From positions 1 through 38,998 of the forward strand of contig NZ_JAQYWB010000055.1 of the NCBI RefSeq assembly GCF_030145185.1: a stretch of DNA of 38,998 nucleotides, given 5' to 3'. Below, one piece after another: positions 6,367 through 34,694 of this stretch. This DNA is from Desulfoluna sp. Its GTDB lineage: Bacteria > Desulfobacterota > Desulfobacteria > Desulfobacterales > Desulfolunaceae. The notes under the pieces were generated by a model, which did not search any database, was not told where the DNA came from, and saw only the letters and a program-made list of their open reading frames with translations. Every line of letters starts with the position of its first letter. Within the stretch, counting starts at the first letter, position 1. The translations under genes were made by a program, and so were the position numbers.

Positions 6367-7401
6367 ATGAAAACTCGCATGACAGAACTTTTCGGCTGCA
6401 GGTACCCCATTCAATGCGGAGGCATGCTCTGGATCGCCAAACCCTCCCTGGCAGCGGCTATCAGCAACGCGGGTGCCCTGGGCAACCTCACCTCCGGGAA
6501 CTACAACAGCGCCGATGAATTGCGAGCGGCCATTGATGAGACACGGCAACTGACTTCGGCCCCCTTTATCGTCAACATCACCACCATGCCCTCCATTCGC
6601 CTGCCTGTTGAGCTGCTTCAGGCTTTTTTCCGGGTCTGCTGTGAAAAAAAAGTGTGCGCCATGGAGATCGCCGGGGCCCCGGTGGACCGTTTTCTGGGGC
6701 CTGAATTTCTTCCCATGGCCCATGAGGCCGGCGTGAAGGTACTGCACAAGGTGGGCACGGTGAAACATGCGGTCCACGCCCAGAAGGTGGGCTACGATGC
6801 CGTGACCATCGCCGGATTTGAAGAAGGGGGCTTTCCCCACAAAGACAATGTCTCCACCCTGGTTCTCGTGCCGAGGGTGGTCTCCGAGGTGGATCTTCCT
6901 GTACTGGCCGCAGGCGGGATGGCCAACGGTCGCAGCCTGGCCGCCGCCCTCTCCCTGGGTGCCGATGGCATCATGATGGCCACTCGCTTTCTTGCCACCC
7001 GGGAGAGCGAGGTCCACCCCAACATCCACAAGGTGCTTATGGAGAAACAAGAATACGACACCTCCCTGAACCTGCAGTCGCTCTTAAGCGGTTTCGGCCT
7101 TCAGGTCCGCGCCCTGTCCAATGCCATCATGAAAAAAGTGGAGGAGGTGGAAAAGGCCGGAGGAGACCTCACGGATCTTTTGCCCCTCATCTCCGGCGAA
7201 CGTGCCAGGGCCGTCTGGAAAGAGGGCAACGCCGAGGAGGCCATGCTCACCATCGGACAATCCGTGGGGCTGATCGATGATATCCCCAGCGTGTCCGAAC
7301 TTATCGAACGCATGATCATGGAGGCCAGGGAAACGATCCACAAGACCCATGGACTCCTGAACACAGACGATGAGCCCTGGAAACAAAAAAGCACCGCCTG
7401 A
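6367..7401 (+). CDS. NAD(P)H-dependent flavin oxidoreductase, nitronate monooxygenase family
   Basis: A 344-aa TIM-barrel FMN enzyme of the 2-nitropropane dioxygenase/nitronate monooxygenase family. The N-terminal YPIQCGGM (13-20), the AAGGMANG phosphate-binding loop (181-188) and GADGIMMATRF (198-208) are FMN-site hallmarks. The family's usual GGH catalytic histidine motif reads EEGGFPH here (152-158), so Phe replaces His, with a histidine two residues later. The substrate is therefore uncertain and true nitronate oxidation is doubtful. Relatives in acyl-CoA-degrading anaerobes often sit with beta-oxidation genes. The start has an AAAGGA sequence upstream and nothing longer is in frame. The lipoprotein gene follows 71 bp downstream. 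Confidence 0.85.
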   Translation: MKTRMTELFGCRYPIQCGGMLWIAKPSLAAAISNAGALGNLTSGNYNSADELRAAIDETRQLTSAPFIVNITTMPSIRLPVELLQAFFRVCCEKKVCAMEIAGAPVDRFLGPEFLPMAHEAGVKVLHKVGTVKHAVHAQKVGYDAVTIAGFEEGGFPHKDNVSTLVLVPRVVSEVDLPVLAAGGMANGRSLAAALSLGADGIMMATRFLATRESEVHPNIHKVLMEKQEYDTSLNLQSLLSGFGLQVRALSNAIMKKVEEVEKAGGDLTDLLPLISGERARAVWKEGNAEEAMLTIGQSVGLIDDIPSVSELIERMIMEARETIHKTHGLLNTDDEPWKQKSTA

Positions 7402-26152: not shown

Positions 26153-26429
26153 TTCGCAGCTTGCCCCGAAGAACAACCTGCATGTAACGTTGCCGCTGAT
26201 ACTGCGCTTTTCGTTTTGCCTGGTCGAGAAACATGAATCGGCGCTCCCGGCCGGGATCCTCCCCCACCATGCGATCGATACGCATGGAGAGGGTGTGCAG
26301 CTCCCCCAGCACCCGAGGCTCCGTTGTGGGCAGCTCCCTGATGAGACGTTCCATGCGTTGGGTGGCCCGACTCAGTTCGCCGATAAGGACCTCAACTCGT
26401 TCATTTCGAAACGGATTTTTAGCTATCAT
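26145..26429 (-). CDS. Small helical protein of unknown function
   Basis: 94 aa, not recognised. The sequence is rich in Arg and Glu and looks wholly alpha-helical, with heptad-like leucines (VLIGELSRATQRMERLIREL) and a very basic C-terminal third. No cysteines, no membrane segment. It overlaps the stop of the hybrid kinase gene in an ATGA arrangement and has AGAGGG upstream, so it is translationally coupled to it and likely real. A role as accessory or output protein of the kinase pathway is only inferred from position. Confidence 0.65.
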   Translation of the reverse strand: MIAKNPFRNERVEVLIGELSRATQRMERLIRELPTTEPRVLGELHTLSMRIDRMVGEDPGRERRFMFLDQAKRKAQYQRQRYMQVVLRGKLRNA

Positions 26430-27934
26430 ACGCCCTCTGTATCGGCCTTAGTCAGGGCCGGAAGTTTGACCGTAAAGGTACTGCCCACCATGGGCTGGCT
26501 GATCACATCCACCGTCCCAAAGAGTCCCTCCACCAGTTGGCGGACAATGGAAAGCCCAAGACCCGTCCCGACAATAAACCGTCTTTTATCATCTTTGATC
26601 CGGTAAAACTTCTGAAAAATCTTCTCCTGGTACTTTTCTTCAATGCCAAACCCGTCGTCAGCGATGGCCACCCAGAGTTCATCATCGTCCGAAACCGAGA
26701 CAGACACCCTCACATGGCCCCCGCTGCCTGTGTACTTGATGGCATTGGTAATCAGGTTACCATAAATACTCTCAAGCGACGAGGGATCGGCAAAAAGCAG
26801 GGGCAAAACCGTCTCGGGCAGTTCAAGGGTCAGCCCCACCCCCTGAGCCTGGGCGCGAGCCCTTAAAAAATCCACCATGGCCCGCAACAAACCTCCGGGA
26901 TCCACCTCACGGGGGTGAGAAAACTCCCCGCCCCCTTCGATACGCTGCAGGTCCAGCAGATCACCGATCAGGGCGATCAAGGCTCCGGCCTTGTCGCGCG
27001 CTCTCACGATCACCCCCCGGTTCTCCTCCCCCATCGCCGGCCCCACCTCCTCTTCCACCAGGGCGAGCTGCTCACAAATGGCCGTCAGCGGGGATCGAAG
27101 CTCATGGGCGACCTTGGCGACAAATTCGGATTTCATCTGATCAAAGGTTTTCAGGTCGGTGATATCCGTCAGCGTCACCACCGACCCCAGACACTCCCCC
27201 TCCGCCGACAGGACGTGCTGACCTCGGGCCAGATAAAACCCATTGTCCGGGACCTGAAGTTCACAGGAAGGGATCTTGCCATCGGTCATGAAGACCCCGG
27301 TAGAGATGCTGTTGATCCAGAGACAAAAATCAGAGTCCTCGATGTACCAGGAAATATGGCACTGGGACTCCATCAAACGATCCCCGACAAAGAGCCGTTG
27401 AAACACCGAGTTCATGAGCACCACCATGCCGTAGGCGTTGGTCACCACCACCCCGTTGGGCAACGACTCGACAATGGCCGCGATCCGGCTCTTTTCCGTC
27501 CCCAGGTCTGTCAGGGTGCGCTCACGCTCCCGTTTCAACTTTTCAGCCCGTCGCACCACCCGAATGTGATCCAGCGCGCGTCCGGCCACCAGACGAATCT
27601 GTTCCGGCTCAAAGGGCTTGGCGATAAAATCGTAGGCCCCGCTCTTCATGGCCGTGATCGCGGACTCCACGGTGGCGTAACCGGTCATGATAATCACCAG
27701 GGAGGAAGGAGCCCTCTCCTGGATCTGGGCCAGCACCTCCATGCCATCCATCCCCGGCATCTTCAGATCGAGAAAGACCACTTTAGGGGTGGCCTCAGAC
27801 ACAAAGGAAAGCCCTTCCGAACCCTCCGCAGCCGTAAGCACCTCGCAGCCGCTTCGGGCCAGAGAACGCCTGCAGCCTTCCCGGATATCTTCCTCGTCAT
27901 CAATGATCAGAATCTTTATGTTCGCGTCATCCAT
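26426..27934 (-). CDS. Receiver-PAS-histidine kinase hybrid protein
   Basis: A 502-aa signalling protein with the receiver first: acidic pair Asp12/Asp13, phospho-acceptor Asp56 (FLDLKMPG) and a KPF loop at about 106. A short coiled coil and a PAS-like domain (about 150-260) follow, then HisKA with His277 (AHELRSPL), then HATPase (NLITNAIKYT, DDGFGI, GTGLGLSI). It can thus accept phosphate and also autophosphorylate. No membrane helices, so it is cytoplasmic. The start at 27934 begins the receiver; the longer frame overlaps the upstream gene heavily and is rejected. It overlaps the upstream kinase by 8 bp, which points to direct cooperation with it. Confidence 0.9.
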   Translation of the reverse strand: MDDANIKILIIDDEEDIREGCRRSLARSGCEVLTAAEGSEGLSFVSEATPKVVFLDLKMPGMDGMEVLAQIQERAPSSLVIIMTGYATVESAITAMKSGAYDFIAKPFEPEQIRLVAGRALDHIRVVRRAEKLKRERERTLTDLGTEKSRIAAIVESLPNGVVVTNAYGMVVLMNSVFQRLFVGDRLMESQCHISWYIEDSDFCLWINSISTGVFMTDGKIPSCELQVPDNGFYLARGQHVLSAEGECLGSVVTLTDITDLKTFDQMKSEFVAKVAHELRSPLTAICEQLALVEEEVGPAMGEENRGVIVRARDKAGALIALIGDLLDLQRIEGGGEFSHPREVDPGGLLRAMVDFLRARAQAQGVGLTLELPETVLPLLFADPSSLESIYGNLITNAIKYTGSGGHVRVSVSVSDDDELWVAIADDGFGIEEKYQEKIFQKFYRIKDDKRRFIVGTGLGLSIVRQLVEGLFGTVDVISQPMVGSTFTVKLPALTKADTEGV

Positions 27935-29408
27935 GGCTGTCTGACTCCCCTGGCCCTCGGGGGCGAGGAATTTCCACCCGAAAGGTGGCCCCTTCGCCCT
28001 CATTATTAAACGCGGTCAGGGTGCCGCCATGACTCTCCACAATGCCGTATGCCAGGCTCAACCCCAGCCCCGTCCCCTCCCCGGCCTCCTTGGTGGTAAA
28101 AAAAGGGTCAAAAATTCGTTTCAACAAGGCCTCCGGGATTCCGATACCCGTATCAACCACCTCGGCAAAGACCCACCCGATGCCTGTCACTCCGGTCCTG
28201 ACGGTGAGCACCCCTTCATTCCCCATGGCATCAGCTGCATTTAAGATGATGTTCATAAACAGATGGTTCATCTGCTGCCCATCCGCCATCACGTGGGGAA
28301 GCGTGGGATCCAATTCGGAGCGGATCTCGATGTTATGAAAAATCGTCTGGCTCTCGAGAAGATAGAGTGTCCGGCTGATGGCACGGTTGATATCCAGGGG
28401 CGACATGGCCTTCTGGGTCTGGCGCGCAAACTCCAGTAGCTCGCGCACCGTATCCCGACACCGGGAGGCATCACGCAGAATGCGTTTGATATCCTGCTGC
28501 GCCTCCTCGGGCAGCTCGTACTCCTCGAGAAGGAGCCGCGCAAAAAGAACAATCCCCCCCAGGGGGTTGTTAATCTGATGGGCCACGCCGGCGGCCAGCT
28601 TTCCAAGTGAGGACATCTTTTCAGCCTGAAGAAGCTGAAGCTGGGTCACGTTGAGCTCTTCTGCCATACGCAAGGACTCGCGCATGTCCCGAAAGAACCC
28701 GATGGTGGCCACCTCCTGACCTTCTTCATAAACAATCGCCGCATCCAGATTGATGGGAACCCGTTGCCCGCTCTTGTCCATGCCATCCACCCGAAGGGCT
28801 TTCACATTACCCGGCCCCCCGGAATCTGTACCGCGCATCTTGACCATAATCTCTTCGGCCACTCCCGGGGGATACACTTTCCGAATATCCATCCCGGCCA
28901 ACGCCTCCTCCACGCTGAACCCGCAGATATCCGAAGCGGCATCATTAAAAATCAGGATCCGGCCATCAATATGGGCGGCAATGACCCCGTCCACGGCGCT
29001 GTTGATGAGATTTTTTAAAAAGGCGTTGGAACGTTCAAGGTTCTCTTCCATCTCCTCAAAGGAGGAGACATCATAATCGAGCAGGACCACATAGGATATT
29101 TCGTCCCCGCTATAGAGCGGATACGCATAGTGACAGGCCTCACGCTGGATCTTCCCATTCACAGGATCCACTTTTTTTACGGCACGTTTGCCCGTCCGAA
29201 GGACCTCGACGGCGAGGCAGGGGCTGCAGGGGAGGTCCCGTCTGTAGAGAAGTTCATGGCAGGTGCGGCCTATACACTGTGTCCCCATGTATCTCAACCC
29301 GGGACGGAAATTGGTGGCGATCACCTTGAGGTCTCGTGAAACCAGCATCAGGTTTCGCTTCTCCTCCTCCAGCGCACAAATGGTTCCATCCCGTTTGTCC
29401 GGATACAC
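27927..29408 (-). CDS. PAS-domain sensor histidine kinase
   Basis: A 493-aa cytoplasmic kinase. Residues 18-115 form a PAS-like domain with four closely placed cysteines (45, 50, 61, 64, ending PCSPC), a pattern fit for metal or redox sensing. A classical PAS domain (about 130-245), a coiled coil, HisKA with His277 (GVAHQINNPLGG) and HATPase (NIILNAADAM, DTGIGI, GTGLGLSL) follow. The start is GTG, with AAGGAG five bases upstream. It is first of three overlapping genes. A strong terminator closes the preceding metF operon 16 bp ahead, so it has its own promoter or relies on read-through. Confidence 0.9.
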   Translation of the reverse strand: MYPDKRDGTICALEEEKRNLMLVSRDLKVIATNFRPGLRYMGTQCIGRTCHELLYRRDLPCSPCLAVEVLRTGKRAVKKVDPVNGKIQREACHYAYPLYSGDEISYVVLLDYDVSSFEEMEENLERSNAFLKNLINSAVDGVIAAHIDGRILIFNDAASDICGFSVEEALAGMDIRKVYPPGVAEEIMVKMRGTDSGGPGNVKALRVDGMDKSGQRVPINLDAAIVYEEGQEVATIGFFRDMRESLRMAEELNVTQLQLLQAEKMSSLGKLAAGVAHQINNPLGGIVLFARLLLEEYELPEEAQQDIKRILRDASRCRDTVRELLEFARQTQKAMSPLDINRAISRTLYLLESQTIFHNIEIRSELDPTLPHVMADGQQMNHLFMNIILNAADAMGNEGVLTVRTGVTGIGWVFAEVVDTGIGIPEALLKRIFDPFFTTKEAGEGTGLGLSLAYGIVESHGGTLTAFNNEGEGATFRVEIPRPRGPGESDSHG

Positions 29409-29424
29409 AAAGGCTCCTTTTGAT

Positions 29425-29467
29425 AAAAAAGGCCGCGAACAAAGGGTATCCTATTGCATCGCGGCCT
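29425..29467 (-). terminator. Rho-independent terminator of the metF operon
   Basis: AGGCCGCGA and TCGCGGCCT form a 9-bp stem with a 20-nt loop, followed on the minus strand by a T-run. It stands between metF and the kinase start. Confidence 0.85.
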
Positions 29468-29518
29468 CAAAATCAAACACAACGGTTACGGTACTCTCAC
29501 CTCACAAACACAGGCAAT

Positions 29519-30445
29519 TTACTCGACAATGGGCCGGGGAAGCATCCCTGCGCGTTCGGCGATCTCGGGCACCCTGTGTTCCCACTCGATGGCCATCAGA
29601 TGAACACCGGCGACGCCCTTCATCTCCTTGAACTCTTCGATCTGTTCGCAGGCGATCTTAATGCCCTCTTCAGCGACTTTGCCCTTTTCCGCACCCTGAA
29701 GGCGCTTGATCACCTCATCGGGGACTTCGATGCCTGGCACCTTGCTCTTCATATATTTGGCCATACCCACGCTTTTCATGGGGGTGATGCCGGGGAGGAT
29801 ATACACCTTTTCAGTCAGCCCCATATCCACGGACTGCTTGACCCATTCGCGCATCTTCTCCATATTGTAGACGCACTGGGTCTGGACAAAATCCACACCG
29901 GCCTCTACTTTCTTGGCCAGGCGATGCACCCGCCACTCAAAGGGGTCGGCAAAAGGGTTGGCCGCGGCACCGATAAAGAGCTTGGGCGGACCATCAATCT
30001 CTTCACCGGAGAGAAATTTTCCCTCATCACGCATCTGCTTCACCGCGTTGATGAGCTGAATCGAATCAATGTCAAAGACACCCTTGGCGTTGGGATGATC
30101 ACCAAACATCTGATGATCGCCGCTGAGGCAAAGCATGTTGCGAATTCCCAGGGCAGAGGCACCTAAAATATCCGCCTGCATGGCCAGCCTGTTTCTGTCC
30201 CGGCACACCATCTGGTAGTTGGGTTCAAGCCCCAGCTCATTGACCAGCAGTGATGCGGCCCAGCTGGACATACGCACCATGGCAGTCTGATTGTCGGTAA
30301 TGTTCACAGCGTCTACACGGCCGACCAGGTGCTGGGCCTTCTCCTTGACATGCTCGACATTGGAACCACGTGGGGGACCCAGCTCGCCGGTAAATGCAAA
30401 GTGTCCTGCTGCGAGAATTTTTTCAAGATTGCTTCCTGATTTCAT
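29519..30445 (-). CDS. metF: Methylenetetrahydrofolate reductase
   Basis: A 308-aa FAD-dependent reductase that interconverts 5,10-methylene-THF and 5-methyl-THF. The TIM-barrel landmarks are present: FTGELGPPRG near 18-27, VDAVNITDN, LCLSGDH, an ANPFADP strand, DFVQTQCVYN and LPGITPMKS. Length matches the MetF family. AAGGA lies ten bases before the ATG. It is the last gene of a five-gene run with metV, a cytochrome b, an HdrC-like protein and a tetraheme cytochrome. The family in acetogens works as a MetVF complex, and MetF here probably binds MetV. It sits in the methyl branch of the Wood-Ljungdahl pathway. Half-site motifs resembling the TetR operator lie just upstream. Confidence 0.93.
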   Translation of the reverse strand: MKSGSNLEKILAAGHFAFTGELGPPRGSNVEHVKEKAQHLVGRVDAVNITDNQTAMVRMSSWAASLLVNELGLEPNYQMVCRDRNRLAMQADILGASALGIRNMLCLSGDHQMFGDHPNAKGVFDIDSIQLINAVKQMRDEGKFLSGEEIDGPPKLFIGAAANPFADPFEWRVHRLAKKVEAGVDFVQTQCVYNMEKMREWVKQSVDMGLTEKVYILPGITPMKSVGMAKYMKSKVPGIEVPDEVIKRLQGAEKGKVAEEGIKIACEQIEEFKEMKGVAGVHLMAIEWEHRVPEIAERAGMLPRPIVE

Positions 30446-30472
30446 ATCGGCACATTCCTTCGCTGTTTGTTA

Positions 30473-30520
30473 TGTTTGACGGGTCTGTGAGGAGCTTTCA
30501 CCTTGCCGTCATATGTTTGA
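30473..30520. promoter_or_regulatory. TetR-operator-like half-sites upstream of metF
   Basis: TATGTTTGAC (30471-30480) continues with GGGTCTGTGA, so 15 of 21 positions match the palindrome at 13318. A second TATGTTTGA lies at 30512-30520. The TCAAACATA half-site is shared by all three. The gap between the HdrC-like gene and metF (111 bp) is long enough for a secondary regulated promoter. Confidence 0.3.
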
Positions 30521-30556
30521 TATCGAGGTACAGAACAGCCCAACACCGACGGTCAC

Positions 30557-30955
30557 TCACCCTGCATGTTTCTGTTCTTTCTCAAAATCGGGGAAGACCC
30601 CCTGCTCACGACAGATGGTGCGGGCAAATGCGATCATTTCCGGGATATCGATGCCAAAGGGACAGTAACATCTTGTGCAGAGCACACATCGATCCCAGAC
30701 CACGTCGCGAATATCCTGAAGGGCGGCCCGATCGACCATCCCCTTTTTTTTATAAAGCACGCCGATGGAATTGATGAACTTGTAGGAGGGCATGTAGGTC
30801 GGATCATTGTCTCGGGCATTGAAGAGAAAACAGCTCTCGGCGCAAAGGGTGCAGTGAGCACATGCAGCCAGAGAGAGCTTCATCTTTGCCTTTCTGCTGT
30901 CGAGCCGTTTTTTGATGAGGTCGGTATCAACCCCGGCTGTGTTTTTCTTGAACAT
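30557..30955 (-). CDS. HdrC-like 4Fe-4S dicluster protein
   Basis: A 132-aa soluble electron carrier resembling heterodisulfide reductase subunit C. The first site is CAHCTLCAESC (Cys32, 35, 38, 42), a normal CxxCxxCxxxC. The second is CVLCTRCYCP (Cys90, 93, 96, 98), where the usual three residues before the last cysteine are reduced to one; the codons are unambiguous. The FGIDIPEM tail matches dicluster relatives. It likely passes electrons between the membrane cytochrome b and MetVF. The start at 30955 has GGAGAG upstream; the longer frame runs into the cytochrome b gene. It lies between that gene and metF. Confidence 0.85.
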   Translation of the reverse strand: MFKKNTAGVDTDLIKKRLDSRKAKMKLSLAACAHCTLCAESCFLFNARDNDPTYMPSYKFINSIGVLYKKKGMVDRAALQDIRDVVWDRCVLCTRCYCPFGIDIPEMIAFARTICREQGVFPDFEKEQKHAG

Positions 30956-30989
30956 GTCAACTCTCCGTATAAGAGGAAGCCCCTTGGGG

Positions 30990-31649
30990 CTACCAGTTTC
31001 TGTTGCCACTGCCCAGCGCCCACTCACCCTTGACGGAAAAACGTACCGCGAAGAAGTAGACCATGTGGACAAACTTGGTGAAGGGCGCACAGATCAACAT
31101 CGCCTCACCGGCCAGAATGTGCAGAACCATCAACGTCTTGTAGTCAAAGAGTTGATGGTACGCGAGAAGGCCCGTAATAAATGGGGCCGTGGCCAGAAGC
31201 AGCATCAGAAAATCATAGCCGCTGGTGATAATCCGAACCCGCGGGAGGAAAAGCCGTCGGTAGAGAAAAAACAGCCCGCAGAACAGAAAGATCACGGTCA
31301 AAACATCGGAGGTTCTTTCACTAAAAGAGAACAGGGAAAACCCGATGGCCCGTTCAATGAGAATGTTGTGCCCCAAAAGAAACAGCGGCACCATCACAAG
31401 ACAAAGATGAAAAACCGAGGTTACGATAATCATCCCCGGGCTGGTTTTAAAGATGGAGAGCTTCAGGGCATGAAGAAACCCACCGACACCTGCGGGAGGC
31501 ACTTCTGCCACCAGCCCTGCCGGTCGTTTCAGTTTCGGTTCCTCAATGGCTTGAGAGAGGGTCAGAAACCGGAACACCTGCCAGAGGATGCCACCGAAGA
31601 AGATCGCAATGGAGATCCAGACCATCGGACCCCTGATAAAATCGTACAT
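30990..31649 (-). CDS. NarI/DsrM-like membrane cytochrome b
   Basis: A 219-aa integral membrane protein with about five helices (roughly 8-28, 72-95, 112-130, 146-165 and 172-200). Histidines in helix-typical places (HLCLVMVPLFLLGH, VLHILAGEAML, FVHMVYFF) fit two b-type hemes as in the gamma subunit of nitrate reductase, DsrM and TmcC. Such subunits exchange electrons with the quinone pool. The ATG start is the natural beginning of the first helix. The HdrC-like gene begins 34 bp after the stop and metV ends 126 bp before the start, so it sits within the metV-metF operon. Heme number and partner are inferred. Confidence 0.82.
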   Translation of the reverse strand: MYDFIRGPMVWISIAIFFGGILWQVFRFLTLSQAIEEPKLKRPAGLVAEVPPAGVGGFLHALKLSIFKTSPGMIIVTSVFHLCLVMVPLFLLGHNILIERAIGFSLFSFSERTSDVLTVIFLFCGLFFLYRRLFLPRVRIITSGYDFLMLLLATAPFITGLLAYHQLFDYKTLMVLHILAGEAMLICAPFTKFVHMVYFFAVRFSVKGEWALGSGNRNW

Positions 31650-31775
31650 GAGAGCCCCACTTTCCTTTTCAATGGGTTGACGTCTGAGTAAAAAGGGGAA
31701 CCCTTTTCACCGGTGCCGGGAGCGGCTGATTTTCACCGGCCCTAAGGCCGGAGGCTCCATTAAAACACCACGGCA

Positions 31776-32447
31776 TCACTTGTAATAACGCTTCTCGTAC
31801 TTCGGTTGAACCACGGTACGCTGCAACTGATTCTGCCACTGCATCACGCTCTGAAGTTTCAAGATGTCATCCAAGCGATTCTGGCCTTTAAGCCTCTCGT
31901 AAATTTCCACCCACGCACAAGGGACATCCTGACTCACCTCACACATGCCATTGTTGGTCCCGCCACAGGGGCCGTTAAACAGACCTTTTGCGCATCGGGT
32001 CACCGGACAGATCCCCCCCGTGTAAGCCAAAACACACTCACCACAGGCACGACATTTTTCTTCATACATCCCGAGGTTTCGATCGACACCGATACACACG
32101 GTGTTAACAGCTGGGAAAACGGGCTTGTCGGGATAACGCTCCGCCATGAGCTGAACCCCTGCACCGCAGGCCATGGAAAGAATACAATCATACCCTTCGG
32201 CGATATCGTCCATTTCCTGGATCAGATCCATATTGCACTGACGTTCCACCGTGTAATTGCCCAATTGCTTGGAAGTGCCGCTCTCCTTGAACGTGAGCTC
32301 AAGTTCGGCGTTGAGTTCGTAGACCTCCCGCTGCCCACCGGCCAGACAGACCGATACGCACCCGCCGCATCCAACGGTCAGCACCTTGCCGTAAGTGGAT
32401 ATGGCCTCGGCGATCTCTTCCAACGGTTTTCTCTTGGCTTTAACCAC
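31776..32447 (-). CDS. metV: Methylenetetrahydrofolate reductase zinc-finger subunit MetV
   Basis: A 223-aa MetV protein, the partner of MetF in acetogen-type reductases. The N-terminal CGGCVSVC site (Cys27, 30, 34) and the C-terminal CRACGECV ... CPVTRCAKGLFNGPCGG segment are family signatures for zinc and iron-sulfur binding. The start is GTG, with GGGAGGGAA right before it. It follows the tetraheme cytochrome gene by 110 bp and precedes the cytochrome b, so it is the second gene of the operon. MetV is thought to bring electrons or structure to MetF; it has no NAD-binding motif of its own. Confidence 0.9.
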   Translation of the reverse strand: MVKAKRKPLEEIAEAISTYGKVLTVGCGGCVSVCLAGGQREVYELNAELELTFKESGTSKQLGNYTVERQCNMDLIQEMDDIAEGYDCILSMACGAGVQLMAERYPDKPVFPAVNTVCIGVDRNLGMYEEKCRACGECVLAYTGGICPVTRCAKGLFNGPCGGTNNGMCEVSQDVPCAWVEIYERLKGQNRLDDILKLQSVMQWQNQLQRTVVQPKYEKRYYK

Positions 32448-32557
32448 GATTCCCTCCCATTATAATTTATCTCAACCCCATCCCCCGGATGAAGCTGTCA
32501 TCTAACGTACTCTCGTCATGCGGCCACCCACCCAACAAGGCCTGTTGCCGCACCCGG

Positions 32558-32983
32558 TCAGTCTGCTTTTACATGGCACTCACCGCACATGACAGGGCCG
32601 GATTTCTCTGCCTCATGGCAGGAAATGCACTGGCCGTGAAAGGCATCCATCGGATCGGATTTCGCCTTCTCTCCACCGTGACAGGAAGCACAGGCAACCG
32701 CGCTGAGGTCCTCCCGATGCATGCTGTTCAGGGTCATCACCTCTTCCGGTTCTGTCTCCGAAAGGAGGTCCTCGTCCAGGGCATTCTCGCCATCCTGATA
32801 GTCATGATGGCAAGAGAGGCAATCTTCAGCCAGATCAAAATGCATCTCATGAGGAAAGGAGACCGAGGGTCTCTGCTTCGCACCCGCCTCTGCCGTCCCA
32901 GCAGACAACAACACCGGCAAAACAATCAAAATGGCCAGCATGAAAAGGGGCAGAACGCAAGATCGTGTTCTCATTTTATCCAT
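32558..32983 (-). CDS. Periplasmic tetraheme cytochrome c (class III, c3-like)
   Basis: A 141-aa exported protein. A charged N-terminus, a long hydrophobic stretch and AEA around residue 33 form a Sec signal. Four CxxCH heme sites are present (55-59, 98-102, 119-123, 133-137), with extra histidines at 45, 48, 60, 89 and 116 for bis-His ligation, as in cytochrome c3. These proteins shuttle electrons from periplasmic hydrogenases and formate dehydrogenases to membrane complexes in sulfate reducers. The start at 32983 gives a proper signal; a longer frame upstream has no ribosome binding site. The first gene of the run leading to metV. Confidence 0.88.
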   Translation of the reverse strand: MDKMRTRSCVLPLFMLAILIVLPVLLSAGTAEAGAKQRPSVSFPHEMHFDLAEDCLSCHHDYQDGENALDEDLLSETEPEEVMTLNSMHREDLSAVACASCHGGEKAKSDPMDAFHGQCISCHEAEKSGPVMCGECHVKAD

Positions 32984-33741
32984 GGGGTTGTCACACTCCT
33001 CGCAGATATGGATGAACATAAGATGACAGACGGAAATCCATCCGACCATCACAACCAGATGTCGTCAAAGAAACGAGTCTAAGACAAAAAAAGCGCACTA
33101 TTCGTGACCTGATTCGTCACGTGTGTACGCCGTTCAGCCTTGAACACACCCATCAGACACGTGATACCTTTTTTACGCAAATTGACTTGTGATGTCAAGT
33201 AACGATAACACTCAACTTTTGTTTTCTTTTTAGCCAATTGAAAAAGCTTTCATGGGATAGGGTAATGCACAAGAGATAGCTTCTTTGCCACCCAATGAGC
33301 ACATACCGATCAGCTGAACATTTGTCGTCCCCACCCTGCCCCGAAACAGCCCGAGAGCAAAGGGGGAACCCTTTGAGGCCGGGGAAAAACAGCGAGGAAG
33401 ACCTTCACGAAAAAAACTGGGGTTATTATAACCCGTCACCAAAATTTTACAATCGGGCAATTACTCATCCAGCAATTTTTTTATCAGCAGACATCCACTC
33501 TTCCGAGCTATCCGGAAGACCGCTCTCTCAAAAATGACTGAAACACCGATGAGAGAAATTGTCAACCACCGACCCGGTCATTCTCTGCACTTTTTAAACA
33601 GATATAAATATCCGTAATCAAACCATCGTTTCAATTTTCGAGAGACCCGACCCCGTCGACATCGCCACTCAATTCATATCACACGAAATTCACACATTAT
33701 TTTTCTCATTTCCGCGGAGTTCAATGAAACCATTTTTCATG
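32984..33741. other. Long intergenic region upstream of the cytochrome-metV operon
   Basis: About 760 bp, AT-rich toward the right. Features seen: the minus-strand promoter candidate at 33170-33198, a CAAAGGG/CCCTTTG hairpin at 33359-33376, and a GGGTTAT-type palindrome near 33420. No convincing gene. Confidence 0.55.
33170..33198 (-). promoter_or_regulatory. Candidate promoter of the cytochrome-metV-metF operon
   Basis: On the minus strand a perfect TTGACA (33193-33198), a 17-bp spacer and TAAAAA (33170-33175). A TTGAC...GTCAA inverted pair overlaps the -35. The leader to the cytochrome start would be about 180 nt. Confidence 0.45.
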
Positions 33742-33771
33742 TTGACATCAATTGATCCGCTTTCCTATAAT
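33742..33771 (+). promoter_or_regulatory. Fully consensus sigma-70 promoter
   Basis: TTGACA at 33742-33747, an 18-bp spacer and TATAAT at 33766-33771, with an A seven bases on (33778) as a natural transcription start. It is the strongest promoter sequence in the window. Confidence 0.75.
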
Positions 33772-33777
33772 TTCTCT

Positions 33778-33938
33778 ACTTGCAGGGATGAATGTAAAAA
33801 ATGGAGGGATGGTCCCCTTGGCCTTAAAATAAAATCCATCGGTTATCCCCTGTACGCCGTCCTCATGACGTCGTGCGGGATAACGTCACCATCGCCAGCA
33901 ACAACCCGTCAAGGGCATTACCCTGTGTTCATTTTTTT
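33778..33938 (+). ncRNA. Structured small RNA or leader, 6S-RNA-like architecture
   Basis: About 160 nt beginning at the consensus promoter. The apical hairpin pairs 33842-33849 with 33877-33884 and 33852-33861 with 33867-33876 (one mismatch, a 2-nt bulge, CTCAT loop). Outside it, an open bubble (33821-33841 and 33885-33909) is closed by CCCTTG 33815-33820 with CAAGGG 33910-33915, AGGG 33805-33808 with CCCT 33921-33924, and AAAAAATG 33796-33803 with CATTTTTT 33930-33937. A long rod with a central bubble ending in a U-run is the layout of 6S RNA, which traps sigma-70 polymerase. The identity is inferred from shape only. It could instead be the leader of the lipoprotein operon 150 bp downstream; the 3' end may extend to 33960. 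Confidence 0.5.
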
Positions 33939-34091
33939 AATGAACCAGGAGAACATTGCATAACAGACGTTTTGCACTGAAACTGATATTTAAGGAACAA
34001 ACCAGTGAAAACTGGGTACCAAATGTCCAGGCTTGTAATCTTTTTTACAAAGCCACGCTGTTAAAATCAGACAAATCGAGGAACTCATCAC

Positions 34092-34694
34092 ATGAAAAAA
34101 AGTGCCCTTCTTATCGCTTTCACCCTGTTTGCCCTCCTGCCGGCCTGTCAGACCATTTCCACCCAGCGGGTAGACAGTGACACCGTCACAGACGTGGGGA
34201 GCAAGTGGAACGACACCGACTCCCGTCTTGTGGCAGACGAAATGATCAACGATGTCCTCTCACGCCCCTGGATCACCCAATTTACCACGGCCAACAACGG
34301 CAAAAGCCCGGTGGTCATCATCGGAGGCGTCAAAAACAAAAGCCACGAACACATCAACGTGAAAACCTTTGTGCGTAACCTGGAAAGAGCGCTTCTCAAC
34401 TCCGGCCTGGTCGAATTTGCCGCCAGCCGCAGCGAACGTGAAGAGATTCGTGATGAGCGCCTGGACCAGGCGTCCTACGCATCCGAAGAGACCGCCAAAT
34501 CCGCTGGAGAAGAGATCGCCGCCGACTTCATGCTGCAGGGCGAACTCAACAGCATCGTGAACAAGGACGGCGGAAAGTCCGTTCGCTTCTATCAGGTGGA
34601 CCTGACACTCATCGACCTGGAAAAAAACAAGAAGGTATGGATTGGAGAAAAACAGATCAAAAAGCTTCTCAAACAAAGCCGCTTCAGATTCTAA
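34092..34694 (+). CDS. Penicillin-binding protein activator LpoB-like lipoprotein
   Basis: A 200-aa lipoprotein of the LpoB/YcfM family (COG3417). The lipobox LLPAC puts the lipidated cysteine at 19. The folded domain has the family landmarks: LVADEMINDVLSRPWI, a VVIIGGVKNKSHEHINV strand-turn, NLERALLNSGLVEF and the closing VDLTLIDLEKNKKVWIGEKQIKKL. In E. coli LpoB reaches through the peptidoglycan to stimulate PBP1b; this copy lacks the long disordered N-terminal linker, so that role is not assured. GAGGAA precedes the ATG. First of a run with a COG3014-like and an LPP20-like lipoprotein, a combination that recurs in other proteobacteria. Confidence 0.88.
   Translation: MKKSALLIAFTLFALLPACQTISTQRVDSDTVTDVGSKWNDTDSRLVADEMINDVLSRPWITQFTTANNGKSPVVIIGGVKNKSHEHINVKTFVRNLERALLNSGLVEFAASRSEREEIRDERLDQASYASEETAKSAGEEIAADFMLQGELNSIVNKDGGKSVRFYQVDLTLIDLEKNKKVWIGEKQIKKLLKQSRFRF

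Follow-up and report, generated by a model that had tools for sequence, protein, structure and literature searches.

A five-gene locus encoding a predicted methylene-tetrahydrofolate reductase

The window analyzed here comprises 38,998 nucleotides of contig NZ_JAQYWB010000055.1 from a Desulfoluna genome (assembly GCF_030145185.1; G000 below). Its reverse strand carries five genes, reading from 32983 to 29519, that encode a cytochrome c, MetV, a cytochrome b, a dicluster iron-sulfur protein and MetF, and hence both MetV and MetF of a methylene-tetrahydrofolate (methylene-THF) reductase (MTHFR). We consider it probable that the products of this module form one membrane complex, i.e., an electron-conducting wire of the Tmc/Hmc type in which the CCG half of TmcB/HmcF has been replaced by MetVF. 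The locus comprises the following features:

32558..32983, reverse strand: TmcA-like acidic tetraheme cytochrome c3 of 141 aa with four CxxCH motifs (PF02085, E 9e-9)
31776..32447, reverse strand: MetV, iron-sulfur subunit of methylene-THF reductase, with a GTG start (PF12225, E 1e-35)
30990..31649, reverse strand: NarI-fold cytochrome b (TmcC/HmcE-like), the membrane subunit (PF02665, E 1e-5; NCBIfam TmcC/HmcE, E ~2e-50)
30557..30955, reverse strand: truncated TmcB/HmcF, a dicluster 2[4Fe-4S] protein of 132 aa (PF13183)
29519..30445, reverse strand: MetF, flavin catalytic subunit of methylene-THF reductase (PF02219, E 1e-40)
about 29424..29467, reverse strand: intrinsic terminator 3' of MetF, a stem-loop followed by TTTTTT

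Coordinates and family matches thus agree with the five same-strand genes and their order as given in the initial annotation of this DNA, and the strong terminator that it had placed after MetF was borne out as well: the region 29415-29480 folds at -29.5 kcal/mol (z = -6.0, with 0/200 shuffles equally stable) and is followed by the run of T. The gaps between the genes, from cytochrome c to MetF, measure 110, 126, 34 and 111 bp. Promoter-like sites showed no excess across both strands of 28500-34500 (5 versus 3.9 expected from shuffles). The catalytic domain of MetVF-type reductases is recognized in MetF at 140 bits (cut-off 24), and the conserved C-terminal cysteine domain of MetV at 121.8 bits (cut-off 23).

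Recurrence in Desulfobacterota and Spirochaetota

A search of 395 Desulfobacterota genomes with the cytochrome b (E <= 1e-40) returned 48 matches in 47 genomes, and inspection of all 48 contexts assigned 31 to a module, one to a split locus (G142, counted as a non-carrier in this sample) and 16, from 15 genomes, to surroundings without MetV. Because this threshold misses divergent copies, 31/395 is a lower bound and the non-carriers may include some carriers. Adding five named metagenome-assembled genomes (MAGs; L057-L061) and the nine closely related genomes G001-G008 and G020, we compiled 45 loci in 45 genomes, with MetV present in 44 of them, as the contig of L117 ends before this gene. Among 247 Spirochaetota genomes, 11 match the cytochrome b (E <= 1e-20), all 11 in linkage with MetV and 10 with MetF following it. 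Counting the spirochaete L061 once and the further spirochaetes as L195-L204, the module is found in 55 genomes of these two phyla in four recurring gene orders.

The most common order is MetF-cytochrome b-dicluster-cytochrome c-MetV (21 loci), followed by the order of the window, cytochrome c-MetV-cytochrome b-dicluster-MetF (nine loci, comprising the window's own, G020 and seven more from its genus or family), cytochrome b-dicluster-MetV-MetF-cytochrome c (seven loci) and cytochrome b-dicluster-cytochrome c-MetV-MetF (two loci, with the MetF counted in L126 being a 29% paralogue while its own lies beyond the contig end). The other six are single cases, either cut by contig ends (L057, L117, L118) or with MetF unlinked (L044, L095, L099); in the search that yielded L044, contexts were read for the fetched subset of matches. 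Conservation of the gene order, by which the initial annotation proposed to judge the locus, holds in part: the order of the window is confined to nine loci of one bacterial order, while the same genes stay together in other arrangements elsewhere. This recurrence of content in several orders led us to reject a chance neighborhood of five genes and argues for a functional unit, a conclusion that we draw with high confidence.

A truncated TmcB/HmcF in place of an HdrC-like protein

The dicluster protein had initially been labeled HdrC-like. We rejected this identity because the NCBIfam profiles that match are those of the N-terminal part of TmcB/HmcF, and the label is corrected accordingly: the protein aligns to residues 37-154 of 457 in HmcF (E 1e-30) and 32-143 of 430 in TmcB (E 8e-25), scores under both equivalog cut-offs and, with its 132 aa, has no match to the CCG domain of full-length TmcB. 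The same truncation is seen throughout the module, with the MetV-linked dicluster proteins ending at most 35 residues past the matched part in 44/44 loci (43 measured and L105 read separately; L057 ends ahead of the dicluster gene). Without MetV, all 18 complete copies have 292-334 extra C-terminal residues, which match the CCG domain in L043, the sole copy scanned; three further copies are cut by contig ends, L120 is without such a gene, and in L121 the frame is broken further up but continues as an open reading frame (ORF) of 353 aa. The two sets also differ in their second cluster motif, which is CxxCxxCxC in 44/44 MetV-linked proteins (followed by P in 42, the exceptions being L099 and L110) and CxxCxxCxxxCP in 22/22 copies without MetV. 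The short motif is likewise present in 11/11 spirochaete loci, L061 among them, and the long one in two further copies without MetV. The CCG half of TmcB is thought to act on DsrC in the Tmc complex. The simplest history suggested by these sequences would be that the DsrC-directed half of a Tmc/Hmc complex was exchanged once for MetVF.

Alternatively, the locus might be an ordinary second Tmc complex that merely lies near metV and metF, with MetVF acting as a soluble ferredoxin enzyme. Such a reading has a precedent in Desulfococcus multivorans, where the literature describes tmcA2B2C2 at 2.38 Mbp as another Tmc complex next to a first one (PMC5109826), metF being unlinked there, and purified MetVF enzymes do function with ferredoxin in vitro (PMC9430772). 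The D. multivorans genes, at 2.377-2.379 Mb (L044), are a MetV-linked module with MetF unlinked, and the 50 kDa given for TmcB2 in the accessible text conflicts with a gene of 127 aa in L044. However, the C-terminal half is absent from all 44 MetV-linked copies read, and the genes are kept together in several orders and two phyla, so that we regard this alternative as very improbable. An ordinary Tmc copy was rejected for the window, given the missing CCG half and scores below the NCBIfam cut-offs.

The cytochrome b and its periplasmic partners

The cytochrome b matches both TmcC and HmcE of NCBIfam at E ~2e-50, under the curated equivalog cut-off in either case (171.3 versus 240 bits for TmcC), and finds its closest named relatives in Desulfoluna spongiiphila, D. 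limicola and D. butyratoxydans (85-89% identity). Four histidines (His81, 94, 177 and 195) are invariant in 45/45 MetV-linked and 22/22 other sequences (67/67), which provides enough ligands for two b hemes; by analogy with the NarI family, the protein probably carries both. An AlphaFold model (mean pLDDT 79.7) has NarI structures as all of its best eight hits in the PDB (TM-score 0.46-0.55, best E 8e-4), and sequence searches of the PDB with the cytochrome b or with MetV gave no match. In a midpoint-rooted tree that leaves out L126 (too short) and the ten additional spirochaetes, the cytochromes b of 44 MetV-linked loci and of the split G142 locus form one clade with support of 100/100. L118, whose cytochrome c gene would lie beyond its contig end, is grouped with the 16-heme set in the display of this tree by gene order.

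The cytochrome c of the window resembles TmcA (E 3e-20) at 72.3 bits, under the equivalog cut-off of 114, and has an isoelectric point of 4.66 (residues 34-141, cleavage assumed). A Sec-type signal peptide recognized by eye suggests a putative periplasmic location. A cytochrome c gene is present in 44/45 loci (in L117 it is cut by the contig end, and the contig of L118 stops just past MetF) and in 10/10 of the further spirochaete loci. In seven loci (L105, L108, L110, L111, L114, L115 and L122), the tetraheme protein is replaced by an HmcA-like cytochrome with 16-17 hemes. The HmcA of L110 passes its NCBIfam cut-off (409.3 versus 400 bits), while an HmcB-like protein (341.5 versus 420) and a cut HmcC-like protein of the NrfD type (210.5 versus 550) remain under theirs, and HmcF is truncated. 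By similarity to L110, these Hmc-type loci encode HmcA in 7/7, HmcB in 6/7 and HmcC in 3/7 cases. With its tetraheme cytochrome, the gene set of the window differs from an Hmc complex, which would consist of a 16-heme HmcA, HmcB and HmcC together with HmcE/HmcF.

MetV, MetF and their relatives

An alignment of 26 module MetV proteins contains invariant cysteines. In a tree that carries a long-branch warning, the 44 module sequences all fall on one side of a branch with support of 90/91, next to a group of metVF pairs (L154-L169). A C-terminal MetV tail specific to the module was rejected because it is common to the other MetVF group. Close relatives of the MetF of the window are encoded in Desulfobacterota carriers (69-93% identity), in nine spirochaete loci (55-62%) and in L061 (65%).

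The metVF pairs L154-L169 come from the same bacterial order and have no cytochromes within the short stretches seen. Four of them (L157, L164, L165 and L168) show a weak dicluster match upstream of metVF, which by eye is HdrD-like in L165 and L168, and the group is possibly another wiring of MTHFR. One member, the MetV of L156 (G027, 1984-1328, reverse strand), has an in-frame TGA at a cysteine that is invariant in the module (GGIC), which may perhaps encode selenocysteine. The genome of the window itself has two more metV copies, L047 (G000:C87) and L048 (G000:C137). As judged by eye, one of these has metF beside an MvhD-like ORF and the other adjoins a NuoF/GltD-like fusion of 1041 aa, so that maybe three differently wired MetV proteins occur in one organism. 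A further MetF homologue of this genome (45%; G000:C100:778-1656) contains one in-frame TGA, and additional MetF paralogues (25-33%), some followed by a MetV-like piece, lie around the module in L100, L101, L116, L119 and L126.

Neighboring kinases and other features

Two kinase genes lie past the terminator in the window, the first of them outside the proposed complex and the second a neighbor that is likewise kept in relatives:

27927..29408, reverse strand: PAS sensor histidine kinase (family scan)
26426..28003, reverse strand: response regulator-histidine kinase hybrid (family scan)

Both are found 3' of the module in six of the seven loci of the same genus or family (they are absent from the fetched L037) and in L042. 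Kinases related to the 26426-29408 pair also lie near the module in other orders, with cluster 5 in 20/45 loci, and dedicated regulation of the module by these neighbors is possible. In L122, an ORF that by eye resembles a REP-associated transposase (6479-7060) separates the dicluster and metV genes. A similar ORF precedes metV in the relative L180 (3180-3743), whose module is distributed over separate contigs.

Metabolic context of the module

Relatives of carbon monoxide dehydrogenase (CODH), acetyl-CoA synthase (ACS), AcsC or AcsE are encoded within the stretch in 14/44 fetched loci (window not included), and AcsE is the nearest upstream gene of the module in ten of these 44. The reference genes for this comparison came from L061, whose ACS and AcsC pass their cut-offs while AcsE (224 versus 259 bits) and a contig-cut CODH (457 versus 478 bits) stay below. 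At the level of genomes, ACS (PF03598) was found in 28/31 Desulfobacterota carriers versus 224/364 others (Fisher p 0.0008) and in 4/11 Spirochaetota carriers versus 21/236 others (Fisher p 0.017), with relatedness ignored in both comparisons. A further search of 13 genomes, 11 of them carriers, detected ACS in all 13. The genome of the window has ACS, a dsrA over the cut-off and three MTTB-family proteins.

By contrast, dsrA exceeds its cut-off in just 3 of 27 carriers tested (G000, G017 and G119), a set of all 11 spirochaetes and 16 others of our own choosing without G001-G008, which are close relatives and possible sulfate reducers. Matches under the cut-off occur in nine more of these carriers but also in 8/14 control genomes. 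A strict tie of the module to sulfate reduction was thus rejected, and the same count speaks against a second Tmc complex. The initial annotation had framed the locus after complexes of sulfate reducers, but a module with so few dsrA carriers and with spirochaetes among its hosts is no specialty of this guild. The association with ACS together with the rarity of dsrA rather indicates that it follows one-carbon metabolism. A strict tie to CODH/ACS was likewise rejected, since ACS was not found in 7/11 spirochaete and 3/31 Desulfobacterota carriers.

The spirochaete carriers in which ACS was not found bring up the alternative that the module mainly serves the oxidation of methyl groups from demethylation (of methoxy compounds, methylamine or betaine) and not the Wood-Ljungdahl pathway. 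Also in line with this are the three MTTB-family proteins in the genome of the window and the spirochaete locus L202, where an AcsE-like match (29%) and an apparent MetF-MetV fusion of 527 aa stand beside the module. However, the frequency of ACS among Desulfobacterota carriers, the ten loci directly behind acsE, and the detection of MTTB-family proteins in just 1/11 spirochaete carriers (versus 0/9 others) make a main role in demethylation unlikely.

A possible transmembrane route for methyl-group electrons

In the single complex that we favor, we propose with moderate confidence a reversible electron path that would lead from the methyl-THF/methylene-THF couple at the MetF flavin via the iron-sulfur clusters of MetV and then both clusters of the truncated TmcB to the b hemes of the NarI-fold subunit. 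From there, electrons could pass to the periplasmic cytochrome c (with four hemes, or 16-17 in the Hmc-type loci) and/or to menaquinone. Electrons crossing the membrane in this way would make the reaction electrogenic: reduction of methylene-THF by periplasmic electrons (from H2 or formate) would build up membrane potential, while during acetyl-CoA or methyl oxidation the electrons would go to menaquinone or be driven by the potential onto low-potential periplasmic cytochromes.

Published standard potentials (E0') are -200 mV for methyl-THF, -74 mV for menaquinone and -414 mV for H2 (PMC9430772, PMC6895022, PMC8578096, as given in the accessible text of these sources), and periplasmic cytochrome c3 ranges from -325 to -170 mV (PMC7031245). 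From these values, we computed about -24 kJ per two electrons under standard conditions for methyl-THF to menaquinone, -41 kJ for H2 to methylene-THF, and between +24 and -6 kJ for the step from methyl-THF to cytochrome c3. Two electrons moving outward across an assumed 150 mV would yield about 29 kJ. With these energies, a membrane-crossing wire could run both ways.

A different exit for the electrons is conceivable, since NarI-fold cytochromes b commonly have a quinol site. The module would then be a methyl-THF:menaquinone oxidoreductase in which electrons end at the quinone pool, the cytochrome c is auxiliary or regulatory, and no charge is transferred to the periplasm by electrons. The downhill step to menaquinone would suit such an enzyme, and soluble and membrane fractions of Thermacetogenium show MTHFR activity with the quinone analogue anthraquinone-2,6-disulfonate (AQDS; PMC6895022). 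However, the cytochrome c gene is retained in 44/45 loci and 10/10 further spirochaetes or swapped for one encoding a 16-17-heme protein. This speaks for a functioning exit on the periplasmic side, and we consider a quinone-only enzyme rather unlikely.

Several observations weigh against a single MetVF-Tmc/Hmc complex. In G142, MetV and MetF are encoded on a different contig from the remaining module genes; MetF is unlinked in 3/45 genomes (G017, G368 and G143), each with a 76-81% identical MetF elsewhere; and no MetF was found near the MetV of the spirochaete L195. The source of the substrate is unexplained in those carriers where ACS was not found, i.e., G042, G204 and G205 among the 31 Desulfobacterota and seven of the 11 spirochaetes (genomes without stated completeness), and MTTB-family proteins as a source of methyl groups were found in just one of these seven. 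Moreover, the MetVF of Sporomusa was purified without its Hdr partners (PMC9430772), so that neighboring genes do not by themselves imply tightly bound products.

Of the membrane-bound, Tmc-like oxidoreductase that the initial annotation had envisaged, the membrane-bound and Tmc-like part is supported by the recurrence in 55 genomes, the single cytochrome b clade, the loss of the TmcB/HmcF C-terminus and the adjacency to acsE in ten loci. Complex formation, the order of electron transfer, the acceptor, the direction and the energy coupling are what we infer from this framework. On a wider proposal we are evenly divided, namely that the module represents a fifth class of MTHFR, a hard-wired, electrogenic and reversible transmembrane enzyme that arose through a single Tmc/Hmc-MetVF swap and has a 4- or 16-17-heme cytochrome. 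It would make the methyl branch a site of energy conservation during CO2 reduction, or of potential-driven electron export when acetate or methyl groups are oxidized. This would apply to sulfate reducers, to further Desulfobacterota including Syntrophaceae, and to spirochaetes.

Relation to known systems

How the interconversion of methylene-THF and methyl-THF is coupled to energy conservation has long been debated for acetogens and acetate oxidizers. Four classes of acetogen MTHFR have been described (MetF, MetVF, MetVF-RnfC2 and the Hdr type; PMC9430772), and other lineages are reported to have, e.g., MetF-HdrABC in Seep-SRB1g (PMC10553843) or MetFV with HdrA/MvhD in Syntrophoarchaeum (PMC9012536). 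An account of MetVF linked to Tmc/Hmc subunits was not found in the accessible text of the open-licence literature in PMC, outside of which lie most subscription papers and bioRxiv; to this extent, the remark in the initial annotation that this exact set had not been seen described holds up. The module is real, conserved and, as far as the open literature reaches, undescribed as a unit, and it would represent an MTHFR with an encoded transmembrane wire.

The module offers concrete membrane and periplasmic subunits for the methylene-THF step in cultured Desulfoluna and in D. multivorans, and if our interpretation is true, the annotated second Tmc complex of the latter becomes a methyl-branch enzyme. 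According to the available text of the D. multivorans study, most constituents of both Tmc complexes were found at low abundance in membrane-enriched fractions across 17 substrates, with TmcA1 and TmcB2 undetected (PMC5109826). Similarly, two TmcBCA clusters have been reported for D. autotrophicum HRM2 (PMC2702500), and a MAG named D. autotrophicum (L062) carries the module.

Among MetVF enzymes, the Hdr type of Moorella and Sporomusa (MetVF-HdrCBA-MvhD) shares with the module the MetVF core and a proposed electron exchange with the membrane. In Sporomusa, membranes catalyze the H2-dependent reduction of methylene-THF, and the Hdr type of S. ovata, in whose cluster no transmembrane helices were found, is loosely attached to the membrane (PMC9430772). 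In contrast, the module encodes cytochromes b and c, and neither HdrA nor MvhD was found among its five genes, the two kinases and ten other ORFs of the window that were scanned. MetVF-RnfC2 of Acetobacterium woodii also has the MetVF core but is soluble and oxidizes NADH (PMC9430772, PMC8578096). In the uncultured acetate oxidizers Ca. Contubernalis alkaliaceticus and Ca. S. acetioxidans, metF lies beside a membrane-anchored [NiFe] hydrogenase (PMC10608574, PMC6295475), so that an MTHFR gene adjoins a membrane redox enzyme there as well, but with hydrogenase partners and without mention of Tmc/Hmc-type subunits in the available text.

On the side of the membrane complexes, NarGHI resembles the module in the predicted fold of the cytochrome b and its four conserved histidines, while its catalytic and electron-transfer partners are different. 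Hmc (HmcABCDEF) provides the likeness of an HmcE-like cytochrome b, the HmcF N-terminus and, in seven loci, an HmcA-like cytochrome; in the module, however, HmcF is truncated and MetVF is added. Tmc (TmcABCD) of Desulfovibrio and its relatives shares profile homology in an acidic tetraheme cytochrome, a NarI-type cytochrome b and a dicluster protein, but the TmcB of the module lacks the C-terminal CCG half, carries the motif CxxCxxCxC and is accompanied by MetV and MetF, also in the 24 of 27 tested carriers without dsrA over the cut-off.

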